In this document: positions 34,929 to 60,138 of the stretch, in pieces
How the letters are laid out: each line of letters opens with the position of its first letter
Position numbering within the stretch: position 1 is the first letter of the stretch
From: Micavibrio aeruginosavorus EPB
Lineage (GTDB): Bacteria > Pseudomonadota > Alphaproteobacteria > Micavibrionales > Micavibrionaceae
DNA length: 64,000 bases
NCBI RefSeq assembly: GCF_000348745.1
Contig: NC_020812.1
Span: 1,559,444-1,623,443, forward strand
Direction: 5' to 3'
Translations under genes and position numbers: made by a program
Notes under the pieces: generated by a model
Told to the model about the DNA's origin: nothing
The model's input: only the letters and a program-made list of their open reading frames with translations
Database searches by the model: none

Positions 34929-35426
34929 TTAGAACGGAATTTCGTCGTCCATATCATCGATACGGGCGCCACCGCCGGACGCGGCACGCGCCGGAGCCGG
35001 TGAACCGTAATCGGCCCCCCCGCCCATACCAGAGCCCATATCGTTGGCGCCGCCAAAACCAGACCCACCGCCGCTGCGGGAATCCAGCATGGTCAGTTCG
35101 CCACGGAACGGGCGCAGGACCACTTCGGTCGTGTATTTTTCTTGGCCGTCTTTGTCGGTGTATTTGCGGGTTTCCAATTGGCCTTCGATGTACACTTTCG
35201 CGCCTTTTTTCAAATAACGCTCGGCAACAGTGGCCAAATTGTCGTTAAAGATCACCACGCGGTGCCATTGGGTGCGTTCCTGACGCTCGCCGGAATTTTT
35301 GTCTTTCCAGCTTTCGGATGTGGCGATGGACAGGTTCACAACCTTGCCGCCCGACTGCATCATCCGCACGTCCGGGTCGTTGCCCAGATTGCCTACCAGA
35401 ATAACCTTGTTCACGCTGCCAGCCAT
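34929..35426 (-). CDS. ssb: single-stranded DNA-binding protein
   Basis: A 165-residue SSB. The OB fold ([19 protein letters not shown], then EWHRVV-like QWHRVVIFN) covers residues 1-110, a glycine-rich linker follows, and the acidic tip DDEIPF is the docking site for repair partners. The ATG at 35426 is the family start; the longer frame is not homologous. A LexA-like site lies 18-32 bases upstream. Confidence 0.96.
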
Positions 35427-35443
35427 GGCCTGCTCTCTCTCAT

Positions 35444-35593: not shown

Positions 35594-35660
35594 ACCGTCC
35601 TTGCAAAAAGAGTACGTAAAAAGCCCGGAAAACGTGGGCGCCTATCAGGGAGCACATATA

Positions 35661-38171
35661 ATGGTACTGACTCAGCACAGTGAAAACCACCTGAAAACCT
35701 TCGCGAGCATCAGTGTCATCGCTGAGCAAGTTGGGGCCCTGCCCACGCATTTTCCCGACTTGAATGACAGTTTAAAAACATTGCCACAGGATGTCGTCCG
35801 CGGCCGCTCATTCCATGAAATCGTCATCGATGATTTTCTGGAGCTTTACGCCTGCATCGCCAAAGACCTTTCGGCGGACAAGGCTTACCCCGAATTTTAC
35901 GGCGAAATCATGCGCCACCGGAACGGCGAAACGATTGTCCCGGAAACCGCGCAGGAATTTCTGGCCGCGCATATCGAACAGGTGAGAAAAGACGCAAGCC
36001 CGTCCTATAACATGGAATGTGTCGGTCTTTTGGAGCTGTCGCCGAAGGGCCAAGAGGTTATTCCGACCGTGGCAGGCTTGTTCAAAACCATGGCCCGCCT
36101 GTTCGGCCAGCTGCATCTCAGCGACGAAGCCATTCAAACCAACAGCTTGGCCGAAGGCCTGGCCGCGGCGATGGAGCAAATCTATCCGGAGCCAACCGAA
36201 ACACCGGCACAGAGCGCGGAAGCGCAGGCTGTTTCAACCGACGATTTCGGCCCCGAGGAAGACGCACACGATGTCTTGTCCATCTATGGCATCAACATCG
36301 CCGAAAACATTGCAAAGCCGCCGCAGGCCCCCGAATTTGACGGCGCGATTGAAACCCTGTCGCGCGTCCTGTTACGCCCGCATGGCGCACAGGCCTTGCT
36401 GCATGGAAAAGATTACAGCAACGCGCGTATTCTGGTTGATATCCTGGCCCACAAAATGGCCGCGGGTGAAGGACCGGGATATTTGAAAGACGCCTCCATC
36501 TACCGCATCAGCCTGACCGAGATGCTGTTGAAATCCGCCGATTCCGGCCCCGCCGGCCAGAGCGCCAAATCGATGCTGAGCGACGTTTTAGACACCACCA
36601 GCGCCCACAATCTGGACAACCCGGATGAACCGATCATCCTGCATTTCGACGATTATGGCTGCGCCCAAAAACCGCTCAGCTATGACGCGATGATGATGGA
36701 TTCCACGGGAATGTTGCGGACCATTATCAAACATTACGCCGACAATGACCCCAGCCTGATGATGGTGTTTAACGCCACGGATGCGGAATTGCATGACCTG
36801 AATGAGGATACAACAAAATACGAACGCATTGCGACACCGGAACTGTCCACGGATTCCGTGCTGCTTCACATGCTGAGAACCGTTGTAAATCTGGAATCAC
36901 AAAAATCCATTGAGATCAGCGATTCCATTCTGGAAGATATCATCCAAAAATCCGATGCCCATATGCCGAAAACAGCATCGCGCATGATCCGTGCCACCGA
37001 TGTTCTGTTGTCCGCCGTTGCGGATGCAGAATTGAAGGGCCACGACACGCTGACATACGAATCTGTCTGCGTCGCCGTTGCCGCACGGTCGAAAAAACCA
37101 CTCGAAACGATCAATGGTGACGGGGCCAGCCGCTACACCAACCTGGCCGAAAAATTGTCCGGCAAGGTTTTTGGACAGGACGAAGCCATCAAGATCGTTG
37201 CCGACACGCTGGAACTGGTTGGGCATGGATTGCATGATCCAAAACGCCCGTTTGGCGTATTTTATATGACCGGCCCGACCGGCGTCGGGAAAACCGAATT
37301 GGCCAAAGTTCTGGCCGATACGCTGGGCACCGACCTGATCACCGTCAACATGGCGGATTTCAGCGGCGAACATACCATCAGCCGCCTGCTCGGCTCCCCC
37401 CCGGGCTATGTCGGATATGGTGATAAGACCGCATTGGAAGACGTGGCACAGAAACCCTATGCCGTCATCCTGATCGATGAGGCCGAAAAAGCCCACCGCA
37501 CCGTCGACAACGCATTCATGAAGATCATGGACGAAGGGGAACTGACCCTGCTCAACGGCAAACATATCGACTTCCACAACACGGTTTTAATGTTCACCAG
37601 TAACCTGGGGGCCCGTGACGCCGAAGAGGCTGGGAAAAAGAACGGTATCGGGTTCAGCGCCAGCAATGGGCAGACTGAACGCGATCAGGCCAGCAAGGAA
37701 GCCCGTACCAAAGCCATTCAGGAAACACTGAAACCGGAATTCCGCCAGCGCGCAACATTGATCGACATGAACAGCCTGACGCCGGATTCCGTGCGATCCA
37801 TTGCCTTTAAAAAGATCAATGAGGTGTCCGATCGCCTGCGCCAGAACAAGGCCTATGCGAATATGGACATCGACCTGACCCAACAGGCCATGGATGAATT
37901 GATGAAAATTGGTTATGACCGCGCCAGCGGCGCACGCCACATGGAACGGGCCATCCGTGACAATGTGAAGGTACCGCTGGTCCACTGGCTGAACAAAAAC
38001 GCAGACCAAGTCGCTGGCAAAGATTGCACCCTGGTCATTGAAAGCGTTTTGAAAGACAGCTTCCGCGCCAGCGTCACGCAAAATGCAAGGGCCGTGAACG
38101 ACAACAGCGAGGGCAGGCCCCAACGCCGCCCGGCCGCACGTACGCAGCCAAGCCCCCCGAAACCGGAATAA
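35661..38171 (+). CDS. ClpA-like AAA+ ATPase with degenerate first nucleotide site
   Basis: An 836-residue protein from the ATG at 35661 (CAGGGAG 7 bases upstream); the much longer frame crosses the ssb gene and the promoter. Residues 1-220 form an N-terminal domain unlike Clp_N. The first AAA+ module has lost its Walker A (HGKDYSNAR, 248-256). The second is intact: GPTGVGKT (538-545), a GYVGYG pore loop, Walker B ILIDEAEK (603-610) and sensor FTSNLGA. IGF at 663-665 sits where ClpA and ClpX carry the ClpP-binding loop. A Clp D2-small domain (MERAIRDNVKVPL) ends the fold. It is probably an unfoldase. No clpS or clpP is adjacent. Paralogue of the next gene. Confidence 0.85.
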   Translation: MVLTQHSENHLKTFASISVIAEQVGALPTHFPDLNDSLKTLPQDVVRGRSFHEIVIDDFLELYACIAKDLSADKAYPEFYGEIMRHRNGETIVPETAQEFLAAHIEQVRKDASPSYNMECVGLLELSPKGQEVIPTVAGLFKTMARLFGQLHLSDEAIQTNSLAEGLAAAMEQIYPEPTETPAQSAEAQAVSTDDFGPEEDAHDVLSIYGINIAENIAKPPQAPEFDGAIETLSRVLLRPHGAQALLHGKDYSNARILVDILAHKMAAGEGPGYLKDASIYRISLTEMLLKSADSGPAGQSAKSMLSDVLDTTSAHNLDNPDEPIILHFDDYGCAQKPLSYDAMMMDSTGMLRTIIKHYADNDPSLMMVFNATDAELHDLNEDTTKYERIATPELSTDSVLLHMLRTVVNLESQKSIEISDSILEDIIQKSDAHMPKTASRMIRATDVLLSAVADAELKGHDTLTYESVCVAVAARSKKPLETINGDGASRYTNLAEKLSGKVFGQDEAIKIVADTLELVGHGLHDPKRPFGVFYMTGPTGVGKTELAKVLADTLGTDLITVNMADFSGEHTISRLLGSPPGYVGYGDKTALEDVAQKPYAVILIDEAEKAHRTVDNAFMKIMDEGELTLLNGKHIDFHNTVLMFTSNLGARDAEEAGKKNGIGFSASNGQTERDQASKEARTKAIQETLKPEFRQRATLIDMNSLTPDSVRSIAFKKINEVSDRLRQNKAYANMDIDLTQQAMDELMKIGYDRASGARHMERAIRDNVKVPLVHWLNKNADQVAGKDCTLVIESVLKDSFRASVTQNARAVNDNSEGRPQRRPAARTQPSPPKPE

Positions 38172-38176
38172 TCACA

Positions 38177-38206
38177 AAAGCCCGCCCCAAACAGGCGGGC
38201 TTTTTG
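38177..38206 (+). terminator. terminator after the first ClpA-like gene
   Basis: A stem AAAGCCCGCC / GGCGGGCTTT with a 7-base loop and a T5 tail lies a few bases after the stop. The two paralogues are therefore separate transcripts. Confidence 0.88.
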
Positions 38207-38289
38207 CTGGCACCATCCGGGAAAAGCGGCAGAAACCATAGACTTTTTGGCATCTTCCCCAGCCTCGTACTTTTTTATAAAGATATTTC

Positions 38290-38318
38290 TTGCCCCATAC
38301 CAAAGCTTTATGTAAATT
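38290..38318 (+). promoter_or_regulatory. promoter of the second ClpA-like gene
   Basis: TTGCCC (38290-38295), a 17-base spacer and TAAATT (38313-38318), identical in hexamers and spacing to the promoter at 35565. An AGCTT block in the spacer is also shared. Confidence 0.6.
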
Positions 38319-38377
38319 AAAGCCCAGAGAAAAGACAAAAACCGCGTAATTTATAAGCGTTATCAGGGAGATAAAGA

Positions 38378-40882
38378 ATGGCCGAGACCGCCCGCGAAAC
38401 CACCCTTCTGAGCATCTTCAACACCATTGAAGCCGTCATGGCCCAGATGCAAACGCTGGATAAACATCCAGGGGTTCTGACATTCCTGGAAAGCGCTCCG
38501 ACGGACCTGGTTCAAGGCCGCACCCTTAAAGAAATTGTTGCAGATGATTTGATGGAGCTTCACGCCCTCGTCTTCAAAGATGTGTCTGCCGATGGGCGAA
38601 ATGCCGATTTTTATTTCCAACTGATGCAACACCGCCATCAAGCCATGGTGTCTCGCCCCGATGCGGATATGACGTTGCGTTACAACGCCGACAAAAAGGC
38701 AGAGACAAAACAAAGCGCCTATATCCCCATGGCCCTGCGTCTGACGAAAGACGTTCCGTCGATGGTGCAGGTTTACACCTATCTGCAAGACAGCTTTGAA
38801 CAACTCAGCGGCGGATTTGGACAGATTTTGTTCAGCAACGACGCCATGGTGTCCTATCAGGCCGCCAATGAGGCTGTCAGCGCCCTGCAACAAAGCGATG
38901 ATAGCGGGACAAAGAAAAACCTGGCCTTCGTCCACGCGGATGACAGCAAGATCTCGAAAAAATTGCGCTCGCTGTTGAATGAATATGCGTCCGACTTCAC
39001 AATCGAAGCCAAAGATCTGGACGACAATCATGGCCGTGACGAAGACGTCAAACGCCTGTCCCGTGTATTGCTGCAACAAAAAGGGGCCAGCGCCCTGCTC
39101 CATGGCGGCGAAGGCATTGGCAAGAGCACTGTGGTCAAAGCCCTGGCCAGAAACATGGCCGAAGGCAAAGGCCCCGGTCAGATGAAGAATGGCAGCATTT
39201 TCAAATTGAATCTGGCCGACATGCTGTTTAACGGCCCGTCATCGGTTATCGACAAAAAACCGCAGGTGAAAGACGTCCTGCTGGATATTTTGAACAATGT
39301 GGCCGATCACAACGCCAAAAACCCGAAAGAACCCGTTATCCTGTATATCGAGGACTTTGGAAATTCGACATCGGCATTGAAAGAAAATATGACAGCCCTG
39401 CGCGCGCTGATCGCCCACGAATTGTCCCAGAACAAAGACCTGCATTTGATTGCCAGCGCGACAGACCAGGAAATATTCCTGATCAAAAAACAATCGCCGG
39501 ATGTTGCAGCCGTATTTGAAACACTGAAACTTCAAGAACTGCCCGCCGATATTGCAATGATACAATTGCAACGTCATGCGGAAAAAATTTCCAACTATCA
39601 CTCGGTTGAAATTACACAGGACGCTTTGGATCATATCGCGGCAAAAACCGATCGTTATATGCCCAACCAATTCCGCCCCGGAAAAGGCATCGGCATTTTG
39701 CTGTCCGCCGTTGCGGAAAGCGAGCTGAACAATGAATCCACGCTGAGCATTGCGACGATTGATAACATCATCGCCGAAAAAACAGGCCTGCCGCTGGCTT
39801 TAATCGGCGGATCGGCATCGGATCGCATCGAAAATCTGGGCGATACTTTGTCCCAACGGATTTTCGGCCAGGACGAAGCCGTAACAAAAATTTCCAAAAC
39901 CATTGGGTTGGTGAACCGCAATTTGCACGACCCGAAAAAGCCGCTGGGCGTCTTCTACCTGATGGGCAGCAGCGGCGTCGGGAAAAGCGAGCTGGCAAAA
40001 TCCTTGTCGGAATCGCTGTTTGTCGATGAAAAAGCACTGATCACCGTGAACCTGGCCGACTTCGCCGAAAAACACACGGTCAGCCGCATCGTCGGTTCCC
40101 CGCCGGGCTACATTGGTTACGGTGAAGAAACCGCGCTGGAAGCCGTGGACAAAAAACCCTTCTCTGTCGTGCTGTTCGACGAAGCCGAAAAGGCCCACCC
40201 GGAAGTGGACAACGCCCTGATGAAAATCATGGATGAAGGCGAGCTGACCCTGCTGAACGGCAAGAAGCTGAACTTCCGCAACTGCGTCCTGATCTTCACC
40301 AGTAACTTGGGGGCAACCGCAGCCCAAAATGCCGCCGATGAAATCAAGGAAAAGGCGACAATTGGCTTCACCGCCCCTTCGAGAGAAGATCGCGAAAACG
40401 ATGCCCAAAAAGCCGCCGCGAAAGAACGGTTACAAGCCGCGAAAGACCGCCTGAAACCGGAATTCCGCAACCGGGCGACCTTTATCGACATGAAGGATCT
40501 GACGCCGGAGGTTGTCCGCACCATCGCGCTGAAGAAAATCGACGGCGTGTCGGCCAGCCTGCGCCAGAACAAGCTCTATGCCGGATTGACGGTCCAGCTG
40601 TCCGACAATGCGCTGGATGAGTTGATGAGCGTTGGCTTCGACGCCAAGAACGGGGCCCGCCCGATGGATCGCGCCATCCGCGATTACGTCAAGGTTCCGT
40701 TGGCCGATTGGTTGAAGCAAAACGAAGCCGATCTGGCCGGGGAAGCCAAAACCCTGACCGTCGACAGCGTGAAAGACAGCTTCGCCGTGACAGCCACCGC
40801 GACCGCCGCCAACCAGAACAAGGCCGAGACCGCCAAACCGGTCACCCGCAAACCGAACGGCCCGGCGGCGCAGCCGGCTTAA
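38378..40882 (+). CDS. ClpA-like AAA+ ATPase with two intact nucleotide sites
   Basis: An 834-residue paralogue of the preceding gene, similar in length, order and N-terminal domain (LVQGRTLKEIVADDLMELHA here, VVRGRSFHEIVIDDFLELYA there). The first AAA+ module keeps Walker A (GGEGIGKST, 243-251). The second has GSSGVGKS (530-537), GYIGYG pore loop, Walker B LFDEAEK from 599 and sensor FTSNLGA. IGF at 662-664 matches the ClpP-contact loop position. The KYRG-type first-ring pore loop of ClpA is not visible. CAGGGAG precedes the ATG. Its function is probably ATP-driven protein unfolding, with or without ClpP. Substrate unknown. Confidence 0.86.
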   Translation: MAETARETTLLSIFNTIEAVMAQMQTLDKHPGVLTFLESAPTDLVQGRTLKEIVADDLMELHALVFKDVSADGRNADFYFQLMQHRHQAMVSRPDADMTLRYNADKKAETKQSAYIPMALRLTKDVPSMVQVYTYLQDSFEQLSGGFGQILFSNDAMVSYQAANEAVSALQQSDDSGTKKNLAFVHADDSKISKKLRSLLNEYASDFTIEAKDLDDNHGRDEDVKRLSRVLLQQKGASALLHGGEGIGKSTVVKALARNMAEGKGPGQMKNGSIFKLNLADMLFNGPSSVIDKKPQVKDVLLDILNNVADHNAKNPKEPVILYIEDFGNSTSALKENMTALRALIAHELSQNKDLHLIASATDQEIFLIKKQSPDVAAVFETLKLQELPADIAMIQLQRHAEKISNYHSVEITQDALDHIAAKTDRYMPNQFRPGKGIGILLSAVAESELNNESTLSIATIDNIIAEKTGLPLALIGGSASDRIENLGDTLSQRIFGQDEAVTKISKTIGLVNRNLHDPKKPLGVFYLMGSSGVGKSELAKSLSESLFVDEKALITVNLADFAEKHTVSRIVGSPPGYIGYGEETALEAVDKKPFSVVLFDEAEKAHPEVDNALMKIMDEGELTLLNGKKLNFRNCVLIFTSNLGATAAQNAADEIKEKATIGFTAPSREDRENDAQKAAAKERLQAAKDRLKPEFRNRATFIDMKDLTPEVVRTIALKKIDGVSASLRQNKLYAGLTVQLSDNALDELMSVGFDAKNGARPMDRAIRDYVKVPLADWLKQNEADLAGEAKTLTVDSVKDSFAVTATATAANQNKAETAKPVTRKPNGPAAQPA

Positions 40883-41034: not shown

Positions 41035-43908
<2,874 letters not shown>

Positions 43909-44173: not shown

Positions 44174-45139
44174 ATGTTAAACGGTAAAACATATTACGAA
44201 ATTCTGGGCGTTGATCCGAAAGCGGACGATGCGGTGATCAAGGCCGCCTATCGCGCCATCACCAGCAAATATCACCCCGACAAAAACCCGGGCGATGCGG
44301 CCGCGGAAGAAAAAACCAAAGAAGCCAATATTGCCTATGCCGTGCTGAGAGATGATCGCGCCGGATACGACAGCATGCTGGCCTCCACATACGCGGCAAA
44401 CAAACCCAGCGTTAATCAACCGCCATCAACCGAAGTGCGCCAGTCATACAGCCCGCCGCAAAAATATACAGAACCAGAAGCACAGCAGGCCAAACCGGGC
44501 TTCGACCGCACCGAACAAAAACCCGGTTTTGAACGCAGCCAACGCAACGCCGCGCAACGCCAAGCCAACCTGAGCAAGAAATCAGGTCTGGGAAAATATT
44601 TCGTCGCCGCCGCTTTGGGCGGTGCCGCCCTGTGGGCCTATAACGAATTTTTCAAAAATGACATCGACATTAAACCGATCCCGACGCCGGTGCCAAACAC
44701 CGTGCAACAGGCCCCAAAAACGGCGGCCCCACAACAGCCAACGGGGAATGGTTACGTGATCCAGCCGGGCGAATTGTCCCCGCAATGGAAAGCCATCGTT
44801 TGCGTCCCGCGCATTCCGCAAGACCGCATGGGTGACAACGCCTATCGCGTCAGCGAAGTTCTGCCGCAACAGGAAAAAATTGATGCGATTATCGAAGGCA
44901 TGAAACGCGATCCGAACAGCGAACTGGTCAAAATGGCCCAACGCAATAACACCCATATTCGCGTCACCTACACCCCGGCGGGTTACAAGGCCGAGCCGAT
45001 TATTCACAATATCACTAACACATTCTCGCTGAATTGTGACAAGGGCTTCTTCCGCTATCCCAGCACGAAGGAACCGCAATACAGTCTTGATAAATTCATG
45101 ACTGCCCCGATCAGCAAGCTGAAACCCGTTCGTTATTAA
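44174..45139 (+). CDS. membrane J-domain protein
   Basis: A 321-residue protein with an N-terminal DnaJ domain (about 4-70, with the HPD motif in [10 protein letters not shown]), a polar Gln/Pro-rich linker, one membrane segment (about 138-155, [19 protein letters not shown]), and a C-terminal domain of about 130 residues with no recognised family. The HPD motif implies stimulation of a DnaK-type ATPase near the membrane. The gene 12 bases downstream encodes another membrane protein, so they probably form an operon. Confidence 0.82.
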
Positions 45140-45150
45140 GAGTACGTACC

Positions 45151-46122
45151 ATGACCGAACAGAACAAACCCGAACAAGCCAGAATTGAACACAAACCCAC
45201 GACAGCACAACGCTTAAAGCAGAAAGCGGCCGCGCTGTTCAAAAAAACGCCGGGTGCCATGGGCACAGGCGGCCAGATGGCGTGGAGCGGCCTGCGCAAA
45301 ACCGGCAAAGGGCTGGGTGTAGCAGCTCTGTTCGGAGCCGCACTGGGTAAAAAAATGGGCTGGAAGGGTTTAGGCTATCTCATCGGCATTCCGGCCGCTA
45401 TTGCCGCGGCCGTTGTCGTTGGCGGTATTGCCATCCCTGTTATTGCCGCTGTTGGTGGCTTCTGGGGCCTGAAAAAATTAAACAACCATATTCCACTGCA
45501 AAAAGCGCTCGGCTGGGTCGCCATCGGCCCCGTTATTGTCGCCGCAGGACAGGCTTTGTTCCAAGAGCGTATCAATCCGATGGAAAACCCAAAGGATGCC
45601 TTCGACTATACGCTCAGCCAATCAGGCCAGAATTACAAAACACTGGGCACGTGGATTATGTCGGGCGGCATGTGGGCCGTCGACAAAGTCAACAGCACAG
45701 TGGATATGAGCAAAGTTCCGGCGGAAAAAGTCAAAGAAACAGCCGCGTCTTATGGCCTGACGGACACGTTCACCAAGCAAACAACGGTTACGCTGAGCAT
45801 TCCCGATAACCACATGGCGATTGAATGCCATGAAAAACTGACATCGGATTTCAAGAAAGCGAATGGCGAAAAACTGGCCGCATTAAAAGACTACAACACC
45901 AAACGCATCAATGAATGGAAAGCGGACCCGAACGGGTTGATCACGCAATACGCCGCAAAGGGCGACGTGATGATCATTTACCCGAGATTCAATGATAAAT
46001 CCCAACATCTGGTGGCCCCGCGCTCCTACGCGCCCAGCTCCTACGCCGCGTGCCCGCAAGGTTATGAACGCGACCTGCACTCGCTGAAATCCTGGCTGCA
46101 GAACAAGCACACATCCCGCTAA
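45151..46122 (+). CDS. hypothetical membrane protein, partner of the J-domain gene
   Basis: A 323-residue protein, unrecognised. After a basic N-terminus (RLKQKAAALFKKTPGAMGTG) come two or three hydrophobic segments between about 50 and 100 (LIGIPAAIAAAVVVGGIAIP) and another near 120. The C-terminal 150 residues are soluble with a CHEKL and a CPQGYERDL cysteine. It follows the J-domain gene by 12 bases and both end in a short soluble domain. No function assigned. Confidence 0.65.
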   Translation: MTEQNKPEQARIEHKPTTAQRLKQKAAALFKKTPGAMGTGGQMAWSGLRKTGKGLGVAALFGAALGKKMGWKGLGYLIGIPAAIAAAVVVGGIAIPVIAAVGGFWGLKKLNNHIPLQKALGWVAIGPVIVAAGQALFQERINPMENPKDAFDYTLSQSGQNYKTLGTWIMSGGMWAVDKVNSTVDMSKVPAEKVKETAASYGLTDTFTKQTTVTLSIPDNHMAIECHEKLTSDFKKANGEKLAALKDYNTKRINEWKADPNGLITQYAAKGDVMIIYPRFNDKSQHLVAPRSYAPSSYAACPQGYERDLHSLKSWLQNKHTSR

Positions 46123-51918: not shown

Positions 51919-54900
51919 TTATTCGGCTCTGCGGCGACGACGCAGGCCCGTGTTGTTCCACATAAAGGCCAGACCCAAACCACCGAGAATAACAATCACA
52001 CCCGCAACCATACCGGCACCAAAGCCAGCTTTGCCGATGCCATATCCCGTATGCGCCTTCATGCCATTCATATCCGCGCGCAGATCATCAATCGAATCCA
52101 TCATCGCAACCTGTTCGGTTTTCAGCGACGCCAGTTCTGCTTTCAGATTGTCGTTCTCGGCTTTCAGTGTCTTGGTCGCCTCGATCAGCGGCGCAACGAA
52201 TCCGCTATAGTTGACCGATTTCGTGCCCATTTCATCCTTGGCCGTGCGCACCAGTTCGGGGAACACTTTTTCCACTTCCTGCGCCATCACACCCAGCTCC
52301 AGTTGGCCGGAAACATTATCGCGCATGCGGAAGCTGTAGGTGTCGATCTGATCCAGACGGGCCAGAACGTCCTGCGCATCCAGTTGCTGGATGTCGGTTT
52401 TCAAACGAATATCCGATGTATCAGTCAGAACACCGGTGTACGTAATGTCGCCTTGGGCATGCAGTGCAACACCGGTGCTGGTGTTTGTGAAGTAACCGCC
52501 ATACCCAGCGGAACTGCCAGATTGACCGTAAACACCATAACCAATACCCGATGCATTCGGGTTGTAACCAAACACGCCGCGGCCCGTCGTGCTTGCAGCC
52601 TCGCCCCATACACCACTGGTGGCCCCGCTTGCGCCAGCAGCATAACCTGTGATACCGCGACCGCTTGTGCTGGCCGATTGACCGAAAACACCTGAGGTCG
52701 TGCCCGTTCCTGCCACGGCCAAACCATAAACACCACGGCCGGAAGTACTGTTGGTTTGACCGAACACACCATCCGCCACACCAGTCGCAGAGTTCGCCAA
52801 ACCATAAACGCCGCGGCCCGTATCACCGTTCGACTGGCCATAAACGCCATAGTTCGCCGCGCCGCCGGTCGTTGACGTGGCGATACCATAAACACCATAC
52901 CCCGTTGCACTGGCAGACGAACCATGAACGCCAAAGTTGGTGCCACTCAGTGCCGTAGCCTCACCCTGCACACCATAACCCGCAGAGCTAGCCGATGAAC
53001 CATAAACACCTTTGTTGCTGGCAGATGTGTCCGATGCTGTACCAAATACCGCAGCACCGGTAACCGAGGTCCCCATAACCCCTGAACCGCCCCCATCATG
53101 GTTTCCTCGAACGCCCGACACGGCCGCAGCATTGCCCGTTGAAACCCCGAGCACAGCCGCAGCACCATTCGCGTTTGTTCCTGAAACTGTATTAATCTCA
53201 CCGTAAACTGCGGAACTGTTTTGGGAGGTACCGCCATTTCTGGTCACAATCGACGACAGACCACGAACGCTCGCTCCCCCTGTCGTCGTTGTGTTGATAT
53301 TAAGTAGCCCCACGCCCGCGCCCGCCGTGGCCGGTGCAGACAAGGACAAAAGCGCACCCGTCGTACGCGAGGTCGATTGCAACGACAAACCCGTTTCAGT
53401 GGTTAAAGAATCCCAATTCCAGGTTTGCGTATAATTCCCATTATTAATGCTGTTTGTTGCAGTGGCCGCGGTCAGCCCGCTGATTGCACCACCACCGCCG
53501 CCGCCACCGCAGGCCGCGTTTTCCCAGTTCGTGCCGTCATAAACCAGACATTCACCGTTCGCCGGGCTGGCCAACGCGACGTCGCCCAGATTGGCGATGG
53601 TCATTTCATTCGGGGCGTTCCCGGCCTGACCCGTGATATTGATGCGGTCGGATACGTTAATGCGGCCCGTTACGCCCAACGTGGTGGTGGCGTTATTCCA
53701 TGTGAAACCAGCAACGCCATGCAATTCGCCATTCGAATTAAACTGAACATAAGTATTGGCACCGCCCGGCGTTGCCCCGGCAGCCCCCGGAACCCATTCG
53801 GACCCGTCATAGACCAGCGCATCACCATTGGCCACGCCCGTCGTATCCACATCGGACAACCCATTCAGGCCCATATAGGTCGGCAGGTTCCCGGCCACGC
53901 CGCCCATGGCAATTTTTTCACCGACGCTGACCACGCCGCTGATGCTCAGGATCGTATTACCCTGATCCCATGTGAAATCCGCCGTGCCGCCCAACGCGCC
54001 GTTGGAATTAAACTGAACATACGTATCAGCCCCGCCCGGAGTCGCACCGCCGCCACCACCACCGCAAGCCGCCGCAGTCCATTGCGCACCATCATAGGCC
54101 AGACATTCACCATTCGCCACGCCCGACACGTCAACATCGGACAAATCGGCCAGAGCAATATAGGTCGGTGCGTTACCCGCCGTGCCACCCAGAACCAGAC
54201 GGTCGCTGATGCTGACCACGCCGTTTACGTCCAGCGTTGTGGTGCCTTCATTCCATGTGAAGTTCGAAGACCCGTCCAGCGTACCGTTGGAATTAAATTG
54301 AACGTTGGTATCCACACCGCCCGGCGTTCCGCCACCGCCAATCGCTTCCCAATCATTGGCCGCCACGGCGCACATTTCAAATGTGTCGGTGCTGGACATG
54401 TAACGGATGGAACCTTCGCGGCTGGCATCGCACGCCTCCCCGCTATAGGCAATCTTGATCGTGCCTTCCACTTCAAACGCGGTATCGGCGGACAGGTTCG
54501 ACGCCGGAACACGCGGGTCGATCACCATTTTACCGCCGAACAAGCCCATGGTGTTGTTATCGGCCAATTCGACGGCCTCTTGAGCGCTCATAAAGATACC
54601 CAGCGATTGATTCCCAGTCACTTTCGGGAAGACCGTAAGGAAATTATTCGCATTGTCCGCAGTCACAAGACCGATGGCCATTGTGGCTTCACCCACCAAT
54701 GGGTTTTGGCTTCCCTGTTCAGGGTCAGAGCCTACAAACAATCCATCACCGGCAACAGCGGCAAGCCCCATGGCAATACCGTATCGACCAGTGGCCATGG
54801 TTCCCTCACCCATCGCGGTCGAGGCCTCGCCCGTGGCCATTGAAAACGTCCCCATTGCGGTGCTGGCATAACCAGACGCCTTCGTTTGATGCCCCAGGGC

Positions 54901-57900
54901 CGTACTGTTCTCACCGCCTGCAAAGGATGCGCTACCGCTGGCAAGGCTGCGGTTACCCAGAGCCCGAGACGTGCTCCCCAACGCCGTTGCCGCGTAGCCG
55001 CCCGCTTCGGTATCGGCCCCGAAAGCCATGGATGAATCACCACTGGCAATTGAATTTTCACCGACGGCGAAGGCCTGGTTCCCGGTGGCCTGGGTGAAAT
55101 TACCCATGGCGACGGCGCGCTGGCCGCTGGCCGTTGTATTTTGCCCCAAGGCCACGCTCGCCCACCCGCGGTTCGCGGAATCCCAGAACACGTCATCACC
55201 GACAAATCCGGCCCGGAATGCAGCGTTGTCCTTATCAAAGAACATCTTCGTATTATCATCGGACGAACCGGAATCATCATCCATTTGAGAAGAACCGATG
55301 ATCAGGCTTCCTTCGGACGTGTAAACAAAGTTGGCATCAGCCGCGAATGAATTGTTGGAGTTAAACTGAATCTGACGATCCGCACCCGCGGCGCTTGGGG
55401 CGCTGGATGTACAGGCACTGTTGATCCAGTTTGTACCGTTATAGGTCAAGCATTCACCGTTTGCGGAACCAGACAACACGACATCGCCCAGATCATTCAG
55501 ATCTTCGACAAAGTTGCTGACCGGGGGATCGCCCGCGACCTGTTCAATATTGCCGCCAATTTCTTCCCATCCGCTGGCCGTTGCCGCGCAGACTTCGAAG
55601 GTGTCGGTATTGCTCATGTAACGGATGGAGCCTTCGCGCGATGCGTCACAGGCTTCGTTGCTGTAGGAAATTTTGATTGTGCCTTCGACTTCGAAGGTTG
55701 TATCCGCCGTCAGGTTCGTCGCCGGAACACGCGGGTCGATCACCATTGTACCGCCGAGCAGGCTCATCTGGTTATTGGCCGATACAACCAATCCATCCTG
55801 ATCACCCATGAAAATACCCATGGATTGAATGCCGGTGACCTGGGATGGAGTCGTGATGGTCACAGCATCATCAATCAAACCAAGAGCCAGAGATCCATCT
55901 CCCAAACCGCTGAGCGCCACACCGTCACCAGCCACAACACTACGGCCCATGGCTGTGCTGGAAAGACCGCTGGCTATCGTCTGGTTACCAGCCGCAAAGC
56001 TGTTGGCACCACTGGCCGTTGTCACATGACCCAATGCAACGCTTGCTATACCACTGGCCGTATTTTGCCGCCCCATGGCCACGCTGTATGTACCGCTGGC
56101 TGTGCCGGTCTGACCAGAAACAAAACTATACGAACCGCTCGCAGTAACAGCACGTCCCGTTGCAAAGCTGGCGAGACCACTGGCAGTCGTATCCAGACCA
56201 AATGCAGCGCTGTTCACTCCGATGTTGGCATCATCCCATTGCGCCAAGGCAACGCGGCCGGCGCGGAATGCACCTTTGGAACGATTAAAGACCATCCGTG
56301 CATCTTCATTTCCGGTGGTTGTGTCATCGAACTGGTACGAACCAACAATAAAATCGCCGGCAGATGTATAAACAAATCTCGAATCCGCCGCCAACGCTCC
56401 ATTCGAATTAAACTGGACCTGGCGATCCGTACCGGCGGCACCGATCGAACCAGCGCCGACCGTCCCCACAACCCAGTTTGTGCCGTCAAATATGATGGCA
56501 TTACCGTCCACAGCACCCGTTGTATCCACATCGGTCAGATCACCCAGGCGCATCAATTGCGGAGCGCTGCCGACCTGTCCCGCGATGTTGACGCGGTCAG
56601 TGATATTCACGCGGCCCGTAACGTTCAACGCGCTGGAGCCTTCCGCCCAGGTAAAGCCCGGCGAACCGGCCAGTTTCCCGCCGCTGTTAAACTGCACTTC
56701 CGTATCAGCCCCACCGGCACCGGATACGTCGGCGATGTCGATACAATTCAAACCATCTTCATCGCAATATTCCGTTGCACCGACCGCGCCGTTGACGTCC
56801 AGACGCAGGCCCGCATCCGCCGCCAGATCACCCAGAACGATATTCCCGTCGGATTGCAGGATCATGGCATCCAGATCCATGGACGTACCGTTATGTACGC
56901 CAAACTGGATCGCCCCTGTCGCGCCTGTATGCGGGAACTGGATCATCGACACCAGATCAGAATTATTCCACGCCCCGATCGCACCAACGGCGGCACCATC
57001 GGCCACATTACCCTGCAGATTGATCCCAACCGCGCCCGAAGCCAACCCCGTGGACACAGAAAATTCGCGCGCGGCACTCATCAAATTCGGCGCTGTTGTT
57101 CCCACACCGACATTACCATCCGGCAAAACAACCAGACCGACGGACACGCAATCCTGCACATCGCCTTCGCCGTCAAAATCACCCGCGACATAACCCGCCG
57201 GGCACACGGCCGTATCATACAGCGTATCACCCGTTTGCAGACGGCCCGTTGGCGATGCTACACCAAGGCCCATGCGCGCGGTTGCGCGGTCCCATGTGAA
57301 ATTTGCATCAGCACCCAGCGTACCGGCGCTGTTATAAACAACCTGGCTGTCAGAACCGGGCGCGCCACCAACACTGCTGCTGCTGGAAATCGGCGACCAT
57401 GTGCCGCTGCTGTTCTTGATTTCCATGATGCCGTTATTGTCGCGGATACCGTACCCGGTCGTACCACGCGTTGTACCCCAGTTCAGGTAATGGTTCGGCC
57501 CGATACCAACATCATTTTCCGAATACAGACCCCAGCCACCAGCAAGGTTTTGGAAGTAACCACCAATACCATCAGGGCTGTTCACATCACCATAAACGCC
57601 ATACGTGTTGCCCGTCGCTGATGCCGCGCGAGCAAAAAGACCATATCCGTTAGAACCATTACTGATCGCCTGAACACCGTAGTTCACACCTACCGTGGCG
57701 CTGGCATAACCATACACACCGCGGCCGCTGCCACTATCGCTTTGACCAATAACGCCCGTTACAAATCCTGCTGCCCCGCTGGCAAGACCAGTGATCGCCG
57801 ATGCACCCGATGTCGTCGATGTCGTTGAAACATTCAGCGCCGCCGCCGATGCTCCCGTGTTCGTTCCGGCGATATTCAGGATGCTGCCTGATGTGATTGA

Positions 57901-60138
57901 CGACGATCCCAAAATCAGGCCGTTATCCGTCGTCAGAGAATCCCAGCGCCATGTCTGCGTGTAGTTCGCGTTGTCGATGATGTTGGTCGCCGCCGCTTCC
58001 TGCAACGCGCTGATGCGCGGGGAACCAACGCCACCGCCACCGCCGCCAGACGCACCGATCGTGTACCAATTGCCATCGGACGAGCAATATTCCAGCGCAT
58101 CGCCGGAACTGGTGTATTTGATCGAACCGGATGTTCCAGCCGCGCAACCATTGGCCGTATCACCGATACGGATTGCACCAGCAACTTCCAAATCCATATT
58201 CGGATTTGTTGTGCCGATACCCACTTCACCAGACGCCAAAACCGTCAACGCCGGCGCACCGCCGACATTCAGCGACACGCCCGTGCCCTGTTCATACAAA
58301 CCGGAGTCGGAATTTACACGGAACGATTCACCCAGAACATAACCAGAAAATTCACCATTCCCGACAACATCCAACGCCTGCCCCGGTGACGGTTCACCGA
58401 TACCAACGTTCCCGGATGAATCGACGACGAGGCGTTGCAGACCATTCGTGGAAATGGCCAAATCGCCGGCTCCTGAGCCAAAAATACCCGTATCCGCATC
58501 GCCATCAAACGAATAAGCAGGAGCGCCCGCATTTCCCTCATCAGCATAGAAACTTTCGCTCGCACGAATATCGCCAGCAACATCCAGCTCTTCAGACGGT
58601 GCCATACCAATACCGACAAGGCCGGCACTGTCGATCACCAAGCGCGTTGTGTTCGACGTCCCAAGAAGAAGATCTGACCCACTGGTGCTGTAGAAAACGT
58701 TAGGAGCAACTTCATAGCGATCCGCATTCACGGTACCGCCTTCAACATCAAGCTTATATCCAGCACCCGGCGCGCCCCCTATACCAAGGCGACCACCAGA
58801 AATATCACCAAAAATGAAATTGCTGATACGCAGTTCATTGCTCGTACCAGCAGCAAGCGCATCCGAATTACCAATGATGATGTTGTTCGAACCCGTCGTA
58901 ACACCACCCCCAGCACCCGAGCCTATCATTACGTTGTTGTTACCGGTTGTAATATTGTAACCGGCCGAGTTACCCAACAACGTATTGTTATCGCCCGACA
59001 CTATAGCTTCGCCCGAGCCCAAGCCCAGCGCTACGTTACTGATCGCCTGCGCAGGATCTACGTTCAGGTTGGCGTCTTCAGAACCAAGAAACAAGTTACG
59101 GCTAGCGCCATGGCTATATCCATCGGTCAGCCCGTCAATATTGCCGCCAACGCCGCCCGATCCACCGATATCAACCCACTTGTCCCCATCCGGGTCCAGA
59201 ATAACGTCCGCGGAGGGATCGCAAATCTGCAACAGCTGGCCACCGCCAGATGTATCGATGCGCAACACGCCCGTGTTGGCAACGTTACAAACGCCGGACG
59301 TTGCCTGCGTCGGCAGTTTCATCAAACCGCCCGCGCTCAAATCAAGGAAGCCGCTGTCAAACTTTGCACCACCCTGGAAGCTGGTTTCGCTCAGGAAGCT
59401 TGCGGCCTTGCTCAGTTCGATTTCTTTATCGATGGTTGCAACATTCGGACTGCCCTGCTTCAACGTCCACAGGCCATCAGACAAACCACGTGCATCATCA
59501 TAAGTGAAGGTGTGAACAATATCATCACCCGCCTGCGTCACATGGTCGTTATTCGCCGTATACGTTTCGCAAGCCGTTTGGAATGCACGGTCGGGACCCG
59601 CGGAAATAATTGCCAGCACGACAGAGCTGTTGGCGGCGGCATCCACAGTTGGCCCATCAATCAGACCGGCGGCGCAAGTCCCCGTACCAATATCTTTCAT
59701 GTCCCAAACGCAATAGCCGTATTCCGTTCCCCATGGGTCGGTTTTGGTTGCGCCGATAACACCGGGGATCAAACCACCATTGGTGGGAATGGGTTCGCTA
59801 CCCGATGGGCCACGCGGCACCAACGGCTCGATATAACCATCAGCATCGCAATCGCCACCCGCCGACTGTTGTGCAGCCTCCATAATCGCAAGCTTCGCCG
59901 CCAACTGCATTTGCGTGTCGGCTTTGGCTCTCTGGTTTACGGTGACAACGGTGGAAAGAGGGCCACGCATCAGCGCGGTGGATGCGGCACCAACAACGCC
60001 AATGAGGGCGACCGCCCCGAACAGGGCGGCGAAAATATTCCCGCGCTCGCTTCTGCGCTGTGACGTCAAACGGAAGTCCCCCGCTAGGTCCCTAGTATTA
60101 TTACGCTCAATATTATTCTCGGGCCGGTGGTCGGTCAT
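51919..60138 (-). CDS. giant surface fibre with S74 chaperone domain and C-terminal anchor
   Basis: A 2739-residue protein with a strong ribosome site (GGGGGGAG). A membrane segment lies at about 34-57 after a basic stretch. YadA-head-like ASG repeats occur near 358-424, 1312-1403 and 1663-1798, seven VQFNSNG modules are scattered between about 930 and 2150, GVYG-type repeats lie near 800-890 and 2365-2553, and four two-cysteine modules are present. A Peptidase_S74 intramolecular chaperone domain starts at Ser2575-Asp2576 with Lys2580 as the likely dyad partner. A coiled coil follows, then a membrane segment (2707-2727) and RRRRR. Length and repeats suit a trimeric adhesin. Alternative: a tail-fibre-derived protein; no phage genes are nearby. 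Confidence 0.85.
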   Translation of the reverse strand: MTDHRPENNIERNNTRDLAGDFRLTSQRRSERGNIFAALFGAVALIGVVGAASTALMRGPLSTVVTVNQRAKADTQMQLAAKLAIMEAAQQSAGGDCDADGYIEPLVPRGPSGSEPIPTNGGLIPGVIGATKTDPWGTEYGYCVWDMKDIGTGTCAAGLIDGPTVDAAANSSVVLAIISAGPDRAFQTACETYTANNDHVTQAGDDIVHTFTYDDARGLSDGLWTLKQGSPNVATIDKEIELSKAASFLSETSFQGGAKFDSGFLDLSAGGLMKLPTQATSGVCNVANTGVLRIDTSGGGQLLQICDPSADVILDPDGDKWVDIGGSGGVGGNIDGLTDGYSHGASRNLFLGSEDANLNVDPAQAISNVALGLGSGEAIVSGDNNTLLGNSAGYNITTGNNNVMIGSGAGGGVTTGSNNIIIGNSDALAAGTSNELRISNFIFGDISGGRLGIGGAPGAGYKLDVEGGTVNADRYEVAPNVFYSTSGSDLLLGTSNTTRLVIDSAGLVGIGMAPSEELDVAGDIRASESFYADEGNAGAPAYSFDGDADTGIFGSGAGDLAISTNGLQRLVVDSSGNVGIGEPSPGQALDVVGNGEFSGYVLGESFRVNSDSGLYEQGTGVSLNVGGAPALTVLASGEVGIGTTNPNMDLEVAGAIRIGDTANGCAAGTSGSIKYTSSGDALEYCSSDGNWYTIGASGGGGGGVGSPRISALQEAAATNIIDNANYTQTWRWDSLTTDNGLILGSSSITSGSILNIAGTNTGASAAALNVSTTSTTSGASAITGLASGAAGFVTGVIGQSDSGSGRGVYGYASATVGVNYGVQAISNGSNGYGLFARAASATGNTYGVYGDVNSPDGIGGYFQNLAGGWGLYSENDVGIGPNHYLNWGTTRGTTGYGIRDNNGIMEIKNSSGTWSPISSSSSVGGAPGSDSQVVYNSAGTLGADANFTWDRATARMGLGVASPTGRLQTGDTLYDTAVCPAGYVAGDFDGEGDVQDCVSVGLVVLPDGNVGVGTTAPNLMSAAREFSVSTGLASGAVGINLQGNVADGAAVGAIGAWNNSDLVSMIQFPHTGATGAIQFGVHNGTSMDLDAMILQSDGNIVLGDLAADAGLRLDVNGAVGATEYCDEDGLNCIDIADVSGAGGADTEVQFNSGGKLAGSPGFTWAEGSSALNVTGRVNITDRVNIAGQVGSAPQLMRLGDLTDVDTTGAVDGNAIIFDGTNWVVGTVGAGSIGAAGTDRQVQFNSNGALAADSRFVYTSAGDFIVGSYQFDDTTTGNEDARMVFNRSKGAFRAGRVALAQWDDANIGVNSAAFGLDTTASGLASFATGRAVTASGSYSFVSGQTGTASGTYSVAMGRQNTASGIASVALGHVTTASGANSFAAGNQTIASGLSSTAMGRSVVAGDGVALSGLGDGSLALGLIDDAVTITTPSQVTGIQSMGIFMGDQDGLVVSANNQMSLLGGTMVIDPRVPATNLTADTTFEVEGTIKISYSNEACDASREGSIRYMSNTDTFEVCAATASGWEEIGGNIEQVAGDPPVSNFVEDLNDLGDVVLSGSANGECLTYNGTNWINSACTSSAPSAAGADRQIQFNSNNSFAADANFVYTSEGSLIIGSSQMDDDSGSSDDNTKMFFDKDNAAFRAGFVGDDVFWDSANRGWASVALGQNTTASGQRAVAMGNFTQATGNQAFAVGENSIASGDSSMAFGADTEAGGYAATALGSTSRALGNRSLASGSASFAGGENSTALGHQTKASGYASTAMGTFSMATGEASTAMGEGTMATGRYGIAMGLAAVAGDGLFVGSDPEQGSQNPLVGEATMAIGLVTADNANNFLTVFPKVTGNQSLGIFMSAQEAVELADNNTMGLFGGKMVIDPRVPASNLSADTAFEVEGTIKIAYSGEACDASREGSIRYMSSTDTFEMCAVAANDWEAIGGGGTPGGVDTNVQFNSNGTLDGSSNFTWNEGTTTLDVNGVVSISDRLVLGGTAGNAPTYIALADLSDVDVSGVANGECLAYDGAQWTAAACGGGGGGATPGGADTYVQFNSNGALGGTADFTWDQGNTILSISGVVSVGEKIAMGGVAGNLPTYMGLNGLSDVDTTGVANGDALVYDGSEWVPGAAGATPGGANTYVQFNSNGELHGVAGFTWNNATTTLGVTGRINVSDRINITGQAGNAPNEMTIANLGDVALASPANGECLVYDGTNWENAACGGGGGGGAISGLTAATATNSINNGNYTQTWNWDSLTTETGLSLQSTSRTTGALLSLSAPATAGAGVGLLNINTTTTGGASVRGLSSIVTRNGGTSQNSSAVYGEINTVSGTNANGAAAVLGVSTGNAAAVSGVRGNHDGGGSGVMGTSVTGAAVFGTASDTSASNKGVYGSSASSAGYGVQGEATALSGTNFGVHGSSASATGYGVYGIATSTTGGAANYGVYGQSNGDTGRGVYGLANSATGVADGVFGQTNSTSGRGVYGLAVAGTGTTSGVFGQSASTSGRGITGYAAGASGATSGVWGEAASTTGRGVFGYNPNASGIGYGVYGQSGSSAGYGGYFTNTSTGVALHAQGDITYTGVLTDTSDIRLKTDIQQLDAQDVLARLDQIDTYSFRMRDNVSGQLELGVMAQEVEKVFPELVRTAKDEMGTKSVNYSGFVAPLIEATKTLKAENDNLKAELASLKTEQVAMMDSIDDLRADMNGMKAHTGYGIGKAGFGAGMVAGVIVILGGLGLAFMWNNTGLRRRRRAE
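52480..53045 (-). repeat. GVYG-type repeat block in the giant gene
   Basis: About a dozen units of roughly 15-18 codons, each containing GVYG or GVFG after a short Ala/Ser/Thr-rich stretch, just before the S74 domain. A smaller related block lies near 57480-57755. Confidence 0.7.
54745..55150 (-). repeat. YadA-head-like repeat block in the giant gene
   Basis: About 14-residue units with the pattern A-G-x-x-[ST]-x-A-[ST]-G, typical of trimeric autotransporter heads. A second such block lies at about 55930-56205. Confidence 0.7.

Follow-up and report, generated by a model that had tools for sequence, protein, structure and literature searches.

The region analysed was a window of 64,000 nucleotides of the Micavibrio aeruginosavorus EPB chromosome (GCF_000348745.1, NC_020812.1, positions 1,559,444 to 1,623,443), a genome of a close relative of a bacterial predator, and coordinates below are those of the window. 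Two genes on the forward strand, gene 1 at 35661-38171 (P0001, 836 aa) and gene 2 at 38378-40882 (P0002, 834 aa), encode Clp-type double-AAA+ proteins, and are flanked by a divergent ssb gene (34929-35432, reverse strand) and by uvrA downstream (41035-43908, forward strand). The open frame of gene 1 extends further upstream, with a TTG at 35142, however in the near-identical genome G002 the first start codon of the frame gives a protein of 838 aa, which supports the start at 35661. Each gene is preceded on the forward strand by a ribosome-binding-like CAGGGAG element, at 35646-35652 and 38364-38370 respectively, although this pattern and a promoter-like pattern were drawn from the same sequences on which they were counted. 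An intrinsic-terminator-like hairpin and T run is present right after gene 1 (38176-38205, forward strand; z -3.2), so the pair is probably not one simple operon.

BLASTP aligned the two proteins over their whole length at 39% identity, N-terminal regions included, confirming the gene duplication proposed in the first-pass annotation. Pfam searches identified AAA_2 and ClpB_D2-small in both proteins and no Clp_N was listed for either at an E limit of 10 (for gene 2 among the best 25 of 48 families), nor was Clp_N detected at E<=1 when the N-terminal regions were searched alone. The N-terminal domain, put at roughly 220 residues in the first-pass annotation and here termed the head, was refined from structural models to about 190 residues followed by a linker, corresponding to 35661-36230 in gene 1 and 38378-38947 in gene 2 (both about residues 1-190, forward strand). 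It has no Pfam family and is predicted to be all-helical, with pLDDT in the gene 2 model below 50 only after residue 175.

Traces of the first AAA+ ring (D1) were detected by Pfam only in gene 2, whilst in gene 1 this ring was seen by alignment to gene 2. The D1 Walker A position of gene 1 (36405-36428) is erased, reading GKDYSNAR against GGEGIGKS in gene 2 (39104-39127), and neither ClpA's D1 pore loop nor its arginine-finger motif was seen in either protein, indicating by motif that these are not proteins with two working ATPase rings. In contrast, the second ring (D2) is intact, with the AAA_2 module at 37245-37754 in gene 1 (residues 529-698, with Walker A/B and a GYVG pore loop) and at 39938-40477 in gene 2 (residues 521-700). 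Both D2 modules carry an IGF tripeptide (37647-37655 and 40361-40369), aligned with the IGF of ClpA, at the position of the loop through which ClpA probably docks ClpP, and not aligned in ClpB. The loss of Walker A from gene 1 beside its retention in gene 2 is compatible with a mixed hexamer but does not show it. These features do not represent gene decay, as dN/dS between this genome and G002 was 0.073 for each gene.

The genome separately encodes clpS-clpA, an adjacent second clpA, clpB and clpP genes. The best NCBIfam model for both proteins was ClpA (TIGR02639), however the scores of 274 and 325 bits are far below the cut-off of 993 bits, and scores against the ClpB and ClpV/TssH models (234/316 and 240/319 bits) were likewise below the cut-offs of 1232 and 885 bits. 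These data support the first-pass interpretation of an additional, non-housekeeping ClpA-like pair with a new N-terminal domain and a changed first-ring pore loop, although that the pair is specialised remains an inference. What could not be seen from this sequence is that the head is not tied to Clp.

To determine the distribution of the head, genomes of the order were searched and it was identified in 22 proteins from 18 of 142 genomes. This is a lower bound, since one head-bearing gene (L202) was missed by the head search and found only through a search for CbbX. In 22 of 22 cases the head precedes an AAA+ engine, but of four kinds: Clp, Lon, FtsH-like and CbbX/SpoVK-like, the FtsH-like engine resting on one gene cut by a contig end. 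A Clp-type protein beside ssb in a further genome (G022), with a dead D1 and an LGF loop, has an N-terminus that was not found by the head profiles (E limits 10 and 1) and for which hhalign gave a probability of 26 and E 7e-4; it was retained as a candidate but not counted. Weak hits G122:C120, G010 and G113 were dropped. A first scan of named genomes with the gene 2 head found nothing, whilst a second with four heads gave five loci. In samples of the wider class and phylum the head was found in 1 of 385 genomes (own only) and 2 of 398 (own plus G835, E 6e-4 over 63 of 193 positions), the G835 hit being excluded because one such hit in about 400 searches is near chance.

Homology of the heads across engines was examined with profiles trained without one engine class, which recovered all withheld heads of the 19 aligned (E 8e-8 to 3e-46) and also L202, which was in no training set (2e-6 to 3e-10), with no hit outside the family at E<=1 among 862 ORFs (the heads' own included) plus reversed heads. 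Searches of Pfam and PHROGs with the heads gave only scattered weak matches (DnaI_N in 3 of 19 heads, best E 0.0048; FUT8_N_cat in one, the lowest E of all at 0.0025; PHROGs best 0.0022 in one) and PDB sequences gave none. No convincing fold match was obtained, with best Foldseek E-values of 0.9 (PDB) and 0.11 (BFVD) for the window head and 0.39 (PDB) for the better head model. VIA-align gave a best Z of 7.1 (bestrophin, 140 aligned, rmsd 13.7; the next 14 rows, from the same bestrophin family of entries, Z 6.6-7.0, rmsd 3.6-4.7) and 5.4 (14-3-3, 76 aligned, rmsd 3.8), values within the range given as common for helical models and not used. The family appears to be undescribed, no paper on it having been found in the literature listings searched (papers consulted: PMC3189940; PMC1084345). 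An ordinary ClpA duplication with a drifting N-terminus, for which the best NCBIfam model would speak, is very unlikely: scores are far below the cut-off, D2 groups outside ClpA and ClpB, and the fusions of the same head to Lon, FtsH-like and CbbX engines refute it unless those prove to be artefacts.

The head gene is divergent from ssb in 16 of 18 carrier genomes, the window included, with uvrA next on the other side in 9 of those 16. Two members at the locus (in genomes G115 and G116) start 2.4 kb from ssb with ORFs between, and in the remaining two carriers the copies found lie elsewhere (G082, whose ssb was not found, and G047). Of six genera with several carriers, four have mixed engines. 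Judged against a guide tree of species, the heads follow genus and not engine: AU tests rejected grouping by engine (all 0.00096; CbbX 0.00036; Clp 0.0078; Lon 0.047) but not by genus (0.57-0.70). The head tree is nevertheless weak, since heads are only 9-47% identical across engines; 11 of 16 labelled nodes have UFBoot of 71 or less, and grouping of the three Clp heads of genus g1 was not rejected (AU 0.084). Head-bearing engines, in contrast, group together against the housekeeping copies sampled, with FastTree local support of 0.97 for Lon, 1.0 for CbbX without G047 and 0.87 with it, but only 0.72 for Clp D2 including G022. D2 Walker A/B and pore loop are kept, and [ILV]GF was present in 6 of 7 distinct Clp-type head proteins whose D2 was seen, the exception being PGF in G114.

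These data suggest that the engine segment is replaced in place, by recombination with a standing pool of head-engine genes, while the 5' leader and head are kept. In one of three cross-engine congener pairs examined, the Lon-type G013 with the CbbX-type G124, DNA similarity runs through ssb, the 5' leader and part of the head and then stops until uvrA. In the other two (G013-G122 and G001-G004) no DNA similarity was detected in the head at all, so the breakpoint is seen once. An alternative is that whole genes, head and engine together, moved between species and landed in the same slot. The grouping of head-bearing engines within each class indicates that complete head-Clp, head-Lon and head-CbbX genes did exist as a pool, G082, G027 (second copy) and G047 (two) carry such genes away from ssb, and the absence of head DNA similarity in two of three pairs is also in favour. 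This alternative is however considered unlikely, given the AU tests, the G013-G124 DNA similarity crossing the 5' leader and part of the head but not the engine, and the 47% identity of the Lon-type G013 head to the CbbX-type G124 head of the same genus, which is more than that of the CbbX-type G122 head to G124 (39-40%).

The head was the least conserved part in 10 of 10 within-engine comparisons. In the window's genus (G000 against G001 and G004) head identity falls to 16-25%, where GyrA is 83% and ClpA/ClpB/Lon are 81-84%. Fast change is not special to these genes, however, since between the same species the adjacent ssb is 59-60% and the second clpA 51% identical. Between the two nearest genomes positive selection was not found, head dN/dS being 0.11-0.13, and it was the D2 of gene 2 and not its head that had the higher dN (0.037 against 0.017). 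Fast head divergence, patchy occurrence and engine turnover could reflect an arms race with phage or another invader, and the FtsH-like member matched the anti-phage IteA/IetA models (E 1e-35 and 1e-37). The IteA score (124 bits) is nevertheless below its cut-off (510) and FtsH fits far better (E 3e-125), and in the 5 of 22 proteins scanned the best PADLOC stretches lie in AAA or Lon-protease parts, none in a head. No head was found in viral contigs with a query of four heads, or in phages or plasmids with a query of one, and the neighbourhood is a housekeeping one (gyrA, ssb, uvrA). With 5 of 22 proteins scanned against known anti-phage families, a role as a conflict gene seems improbable but remains open.

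The explanation we favour, with moderate confidence and in the absence of experimental data or a known target, is that the pair belongs to a lineage-specific family of head-directed AAA+ machines in which the head, standing where each engine's own N-terminal region would be, is inferred to recruit a target or place the machine, whilst the engine behind it unfolds the target. In the window D2 would be the working motor and D1 a largely dead ring, and the IGF loop should dock ClpP, so that the outcome should be degradation; both ClpP docking and degradation as a common output are inferences. In sister species the same head stands before Lon, with its own protease, an FtsH-like engine whose protease part was not seen, or a CbbX/SpoVK-type remodeller, which has no protease, so degradation cannot be the direct output there. 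Alternatively, the head may control assembly, activity or cellular position of the ring, with target choice lying in the engine. This is consistent with its occurrence in front of AAA+ engines in all 22 proteins and its predicted all-helical structure, and nothing shows binding, but it appears doubtful because the head stands where Clp_N of ClpA and LON-N of Lon, probable substrate-recognition regions, would be, serves engines of different classes, and is less conserved than the engine parts, unlike an assembly part. More tentatively, the head may be an engine-agnostic targeting domain that defines what is attacked, with any AAA+ motor that can pull (Clp+ClpP, Lon, FtsH-like, CbbX) plugged in behind it by recombination at a fixed chromosomal slot, giving bacteria of the Micavibrio lineage a re-aimable and re-motorable targeted-unfolding or degradation system, possibly shaped by conflict. 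AAA+ machines are usually classed by their engine, whereas here the N-terminal part appears to be kept and the engine exchanged, within genera and at one locus. This offers a natural experiment on whether target choice can be separated from the motor, and a set of heads for testing portable targeting domains. Names given by the engine (ClpA, Lon, FtsH, SpoVK) would hide one orthologous gene slot in this lineage.

Compared with ClpA/ClpC, Hsp100 unfoldases that feed ClpP, the two proteins share the two-ring order, the intact D2 motor, IGF at the ClpP-loop position and the D2-small domain, but differ in the absence of Clp_N and in the D1 and model-score differences described above. All five Lon-type members have the AAA, Lon_lid and Lon_C of LonA protease but no LON-N match, the head being in its place, and in the two scanned (L057 and L059) the lon model aligned only from position 252-256 of 795. 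The FtsH-like member shares the AAA module of FtsH (TIGR01241), but the model aligned only from position 147 of 598, so the N-terminal part is missing and the head is in its place. The CbbX/SpoVK-like members have a single AAA, with an AAA_lid_6 match in most and SpoVK as best model in the four scanned, but carry the new head in front and score below the cut-offs of the CbbX, SpoVK and EccA models. The nearest precedent for the inferred engine replacement is the non-orthologous domain displacement of RpfB against YabE (PMC1084345), where the same accessory part and genomic context are associated with replacement of the catalytic part by an unrelated one. In that case two enzymes are involved between two phyla, whereas here there are four ATPase engines, partly among congeners, at one locus, and the kept part is the fastest-evolving.

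Genes 1 and 2 lie in tandem on the plus strand at 35661-38171 (836 aa) and 38378-40882 (834 aa), respectively. The two proteins align end to end at 39% identity, and by region they are 27% (N-terminal head), 33% (D1) and 56% (D2) identical. A Pfam search identified AAA_2 and ClpB_D2-small in both proteins, traces of D1 only in gene 2, and no Clp_N. The best NCBIfam model was ClpA, although the scores of 274 and 325 bits are well below the cut-off of 993. The genome is a single contig of 2,458,610 bases and also carries clpS and two adjacent clpA-like genes (785 and 787 aa) in one locus (L009), clpB in a second (L010), and two strong clpP matches at 1354355 and 2313683 besides two weak ones, so the gene 1/gene 2 pair is additional. 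The two clpA-like genes, at L009 5841-8204 and 8409-10766, are near clpS and a second clpP, and the second clpA diverges fast, being 51% identical to its likely counterpart in G004, a relative of the same genus, against 81% for clpA. These data uphold the first-pass annotation, which had described a duplicated tandem pair of ClpA-like AAA+ ATPases with an N-terminal domain unlike Clp_N, differing from housekeeping ClpA also in the first-ring pore loop and probably representing an additional, specialised unfoldase system.

Among relatives, a genome of the same genus (G002), whose two proteins are 97% identical to the pair, is 2,481,983 bases long, exactly the length printed for the obligate predator Micavibrio aeruginosavorus ARL-13 (PMC3189940). 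Of five record titles of more distant carriers of the head, two name Micavibrio and three say only Alphaproteobacteria. Between the window genome and G002 dN/dS is 0.073 for each gene, with the linker plus dead D1 of gene 1 at 0.075, indicating that gene 1 is maintained. Interestingly, dS in the pair (0.19 and 0.26) is lower than in the six neighbours measured (0.38-1.1), which could mean codon constraint or recent exchange. A J-domain protein (44174-45139, plus strand) and a protein without Pfam match (45151-46122, plus strand) follow uvrA in both genomes, and the second of these has the highest dS of the genes measured, about 1.1. Further along the window, a 2739-aa protein (51922-60138, minus strand) with YadA-head repeats and a C-terminal endosialidase chaperone (Peptidase_S74), with neighbours containing LVIVD and Laminin_G_3 domains, looks like part of a surface adhesin locus.

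To characterize the motor regions, both proteins were aligned with ClpA, the second ClpA and ClpB. Gene 1 has lost the D1 Walker A whilst gene 2 keeps it, and the D1 pore loop and RRF arginine-finger motif of ClpA are not intact in either gene nor in any Clp-type relative aligned. In contrast, D2 keeps Walker A, Walker B, the GYVG-type pore loop, arginine finger and sensor 2. At the position of the ClpA IGF tripeptide, which likely docks ClpP, genes 1 and 2 have IGF and relatives have LGF (G025), IGF (G004, G116), VGF (G115) and PGF (G114), whereas ClpB has none. A terminator-like hairpin follows gene 1. A second group of Clp-like proteins, without the head, is present in relatives G071, G025, G004, G013 and G115 (loci L189, L190, L191, L192 and L197); these have an intact second-ring Walker A and, by eye, a degenerate first ring (for example GASGVGMTS), with the L192 frame starting inside it.

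When 58 relatives were searched with the gene 2 head alone, 8 were matched (own genome included), some in other genera, and the proteins identified were not all of Clp type. Of the six apart from the near-identical G002, three end in AAA + Lon_lid + Lon_C and one in a single AAA with AAA_lid_6. A profile search of 142 genomes of the order gave 18 carriers, and two wider profiles gave the same 18 apart from weak hits. In total 22 head proteins were identified: Clp type in the window genome G000 (2), G002 (2), G004, G025, G071, G114, G115 and G116 (the last by sequence only); Lon type in G013, G018, G027 (2) and G082; CbbX/SpoVK type in G001, G017, G122, G124 and G047 (2); and FtsH-like in G079, with the G071 and G079 genes cut by contig ends. 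All 22 heads are N-terminal to an AAA+ engine. In the two Lon-type members scanned the lon model starts at position 252-256 of 795, and the FtsH-like engine at 147 of 598, so the head stands where LON-N or the N-terminal part of FtsH would be.

To test homology between heads, four profiles were trained, each without the heads of one engine class. Every withheld head was recovered (the weakest, a G047 CbbX head, at 8e-8), with no hit outside the family at E<=1 among 862 ORFs plus reversed heads, and a head in no training set (locus L202 of G047) scored 2e-6 to 3e-10. AlphaFold models of the window head (mean pLDDT 72, below 50 only after residue 175) and of a CbbX-type head (pLDDT 86.5, pTM 0.85) show the same predicted order of nine helices over the head, although they rest on the same seven sequences and so are not independent. 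No library named the fold.

In 16 of the 18 carriers a head gene starts next to ssb in the opposite direction, about 170-680 bases away in 14 and 2.4 kb away in two (G115 and G116, with ORFs between). The uvrA gene follows in 9 of the 16, whilst in 2 the contig ends and in 5 it was not found in the stretch retrieved. The heads of G082 and G047 and the second head of G027 lie in stretches without ssb or gyrA. In G047, from another family of the order, the two head-CbbX genes are at L202 2194-4104 and L063 9793-11475. The ssb side was also retrieved for 32 relatives without a head, one for each of 32 genera (one of them carrier genus g10). No head was found in any of these stretches, three of which are under 2.5 kb because the contig ends, and 26 of 32 hold uvrA, either next to ssb or with other genes between. 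In relatives without a head the ssb-uvrA interval can hold GGDEF proteins (identified by Pfam for L102 and L115, and by motif only for L090 and L109). One of the 32, G022, has a Clp-type protein beside ssb (L098 671-3352) with a dead D1, intact D2 and LGF loop, whose N-terminus is at best a remote relative of the head (hhalign probability 26, E 7e-4).

Six genera have more than one carrier and four of these are mixed: g1 (Clp pair, Clp, CbbX), g10 (Lon, CbbX, CbbX and one non-carrier), g14 (FtsH-like, CbbX) and g15 (Lon, Clp), whilst g24 (Lon) and g52 (Clp) are not. On a guide tree of GyrA, SSB and UvrA the engines are interleaved. For 19 heads (excluding L202 and the two near-copies from G002), trees in which heads group by engine were rejected (AU: all engines 0.00096, CbbX of the family 0.00036, CbbX all 0.0041, Clp 0.0078, three Lon at ssb 0.023, all Lon 0.047), although grouping of the three genus g1 Clp heads was not (0.084); grouping by genus was not rejected (0.57-0.70). 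In the engine trees, head-bearing engines group together against the housekeeping copies sampled, with local support of 0.97 for Lon (5 against 11), 1.0 without G047 and 0.87 with it for CbbX (against 5 domains of 4 proteins, a thin sample), and 0.72 for Clp D2 with G022 and without the cut G071 (10 against 38); the G047 engines are thus the least certain members of the head-CbbX group. We interpret these data as suggesting that the engine classes are old and that exchange draws on a standing pool, with the resident head retained. At the DNA level, G013 (Lon) and G124 (CbbX) are similar through ssb, the 5' leader and head codons up to about 107, with gaps, and then not again until uvrA. The other two cross-engine pairs tried (G013-G122 and G001-G004) show similarity only in the flanks, whilst G124 and G122, both CbbX, are similar in the engine too.

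The sequence CAGGGAG lies just before the start codon in 15 of 22 head genes and 3 of 255 control ORFs. This control is weak because control starts are the first possible codon, and only 21 of 255 show any Shine-Dalgarno-like site there, against 21 of 22 head genes. CTTG followed at near-fixed spacing by CT(C/T)(T/A/G)A is present in 9 of 22 head genes (Clp, Lon and CbbX types), in 0 of 255 controls and in 0.3 of 22 in shuffles. Both patterns were drawn from these sequences and most members are related by descent at one locus, so these data show retention of the leader rather than regulation.

Within the window's genus (G000 against G001 and G004) heads are 16-25% identical where GyrA is 83%, UvrA 78-80% and SSB 59-60%. 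Over all congener pairs at ssb that were compared, heads range from 16 to 72% (GyrA 78-95% where both are known). The ClpA, ClpB and Lon controls are 81-84% (the Clp ones on about 600 residues), and D1 and D2 of gene 2 against G004 are 40% and 58%. The head was the least conserved part in 10 of 10 within-engine comparisons. However, between the two nearest genomes selection is purifying (head dN/dS 0.13 and 0.11), and there the D2 of gene 2 has a higher dN than its head. This tempo, together with patchy occurrence, is consistent with a possible role in conflict, whereas the neighbourhood and purifying selection argue against it, and the match of the FtsH-like member to anti-phage IteA/IetA models is far weaker than to FtsH and below the IteA cut-off.

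Most likely the head brings a target, or brings the machine to a place, and the engine pulls, although a role for the head as target receptor is inferred from its place and tempo. In this interpretation D2 does the pulling in the window pair, D1 is a spacer ring and ClpP would finish the job. Lon gives the same output in one chain, and the FtsH-like engine perhaps does too, whilst the CbbX type would only remodel. No description of this family was found in the literature listings examined. AAA+ machines with accessory domains and non-orthologous domain displacement (PMC1084345) are both already known, and we regard the family as a variant of these; what is new is the family itself, whose engine appears to be swapped.
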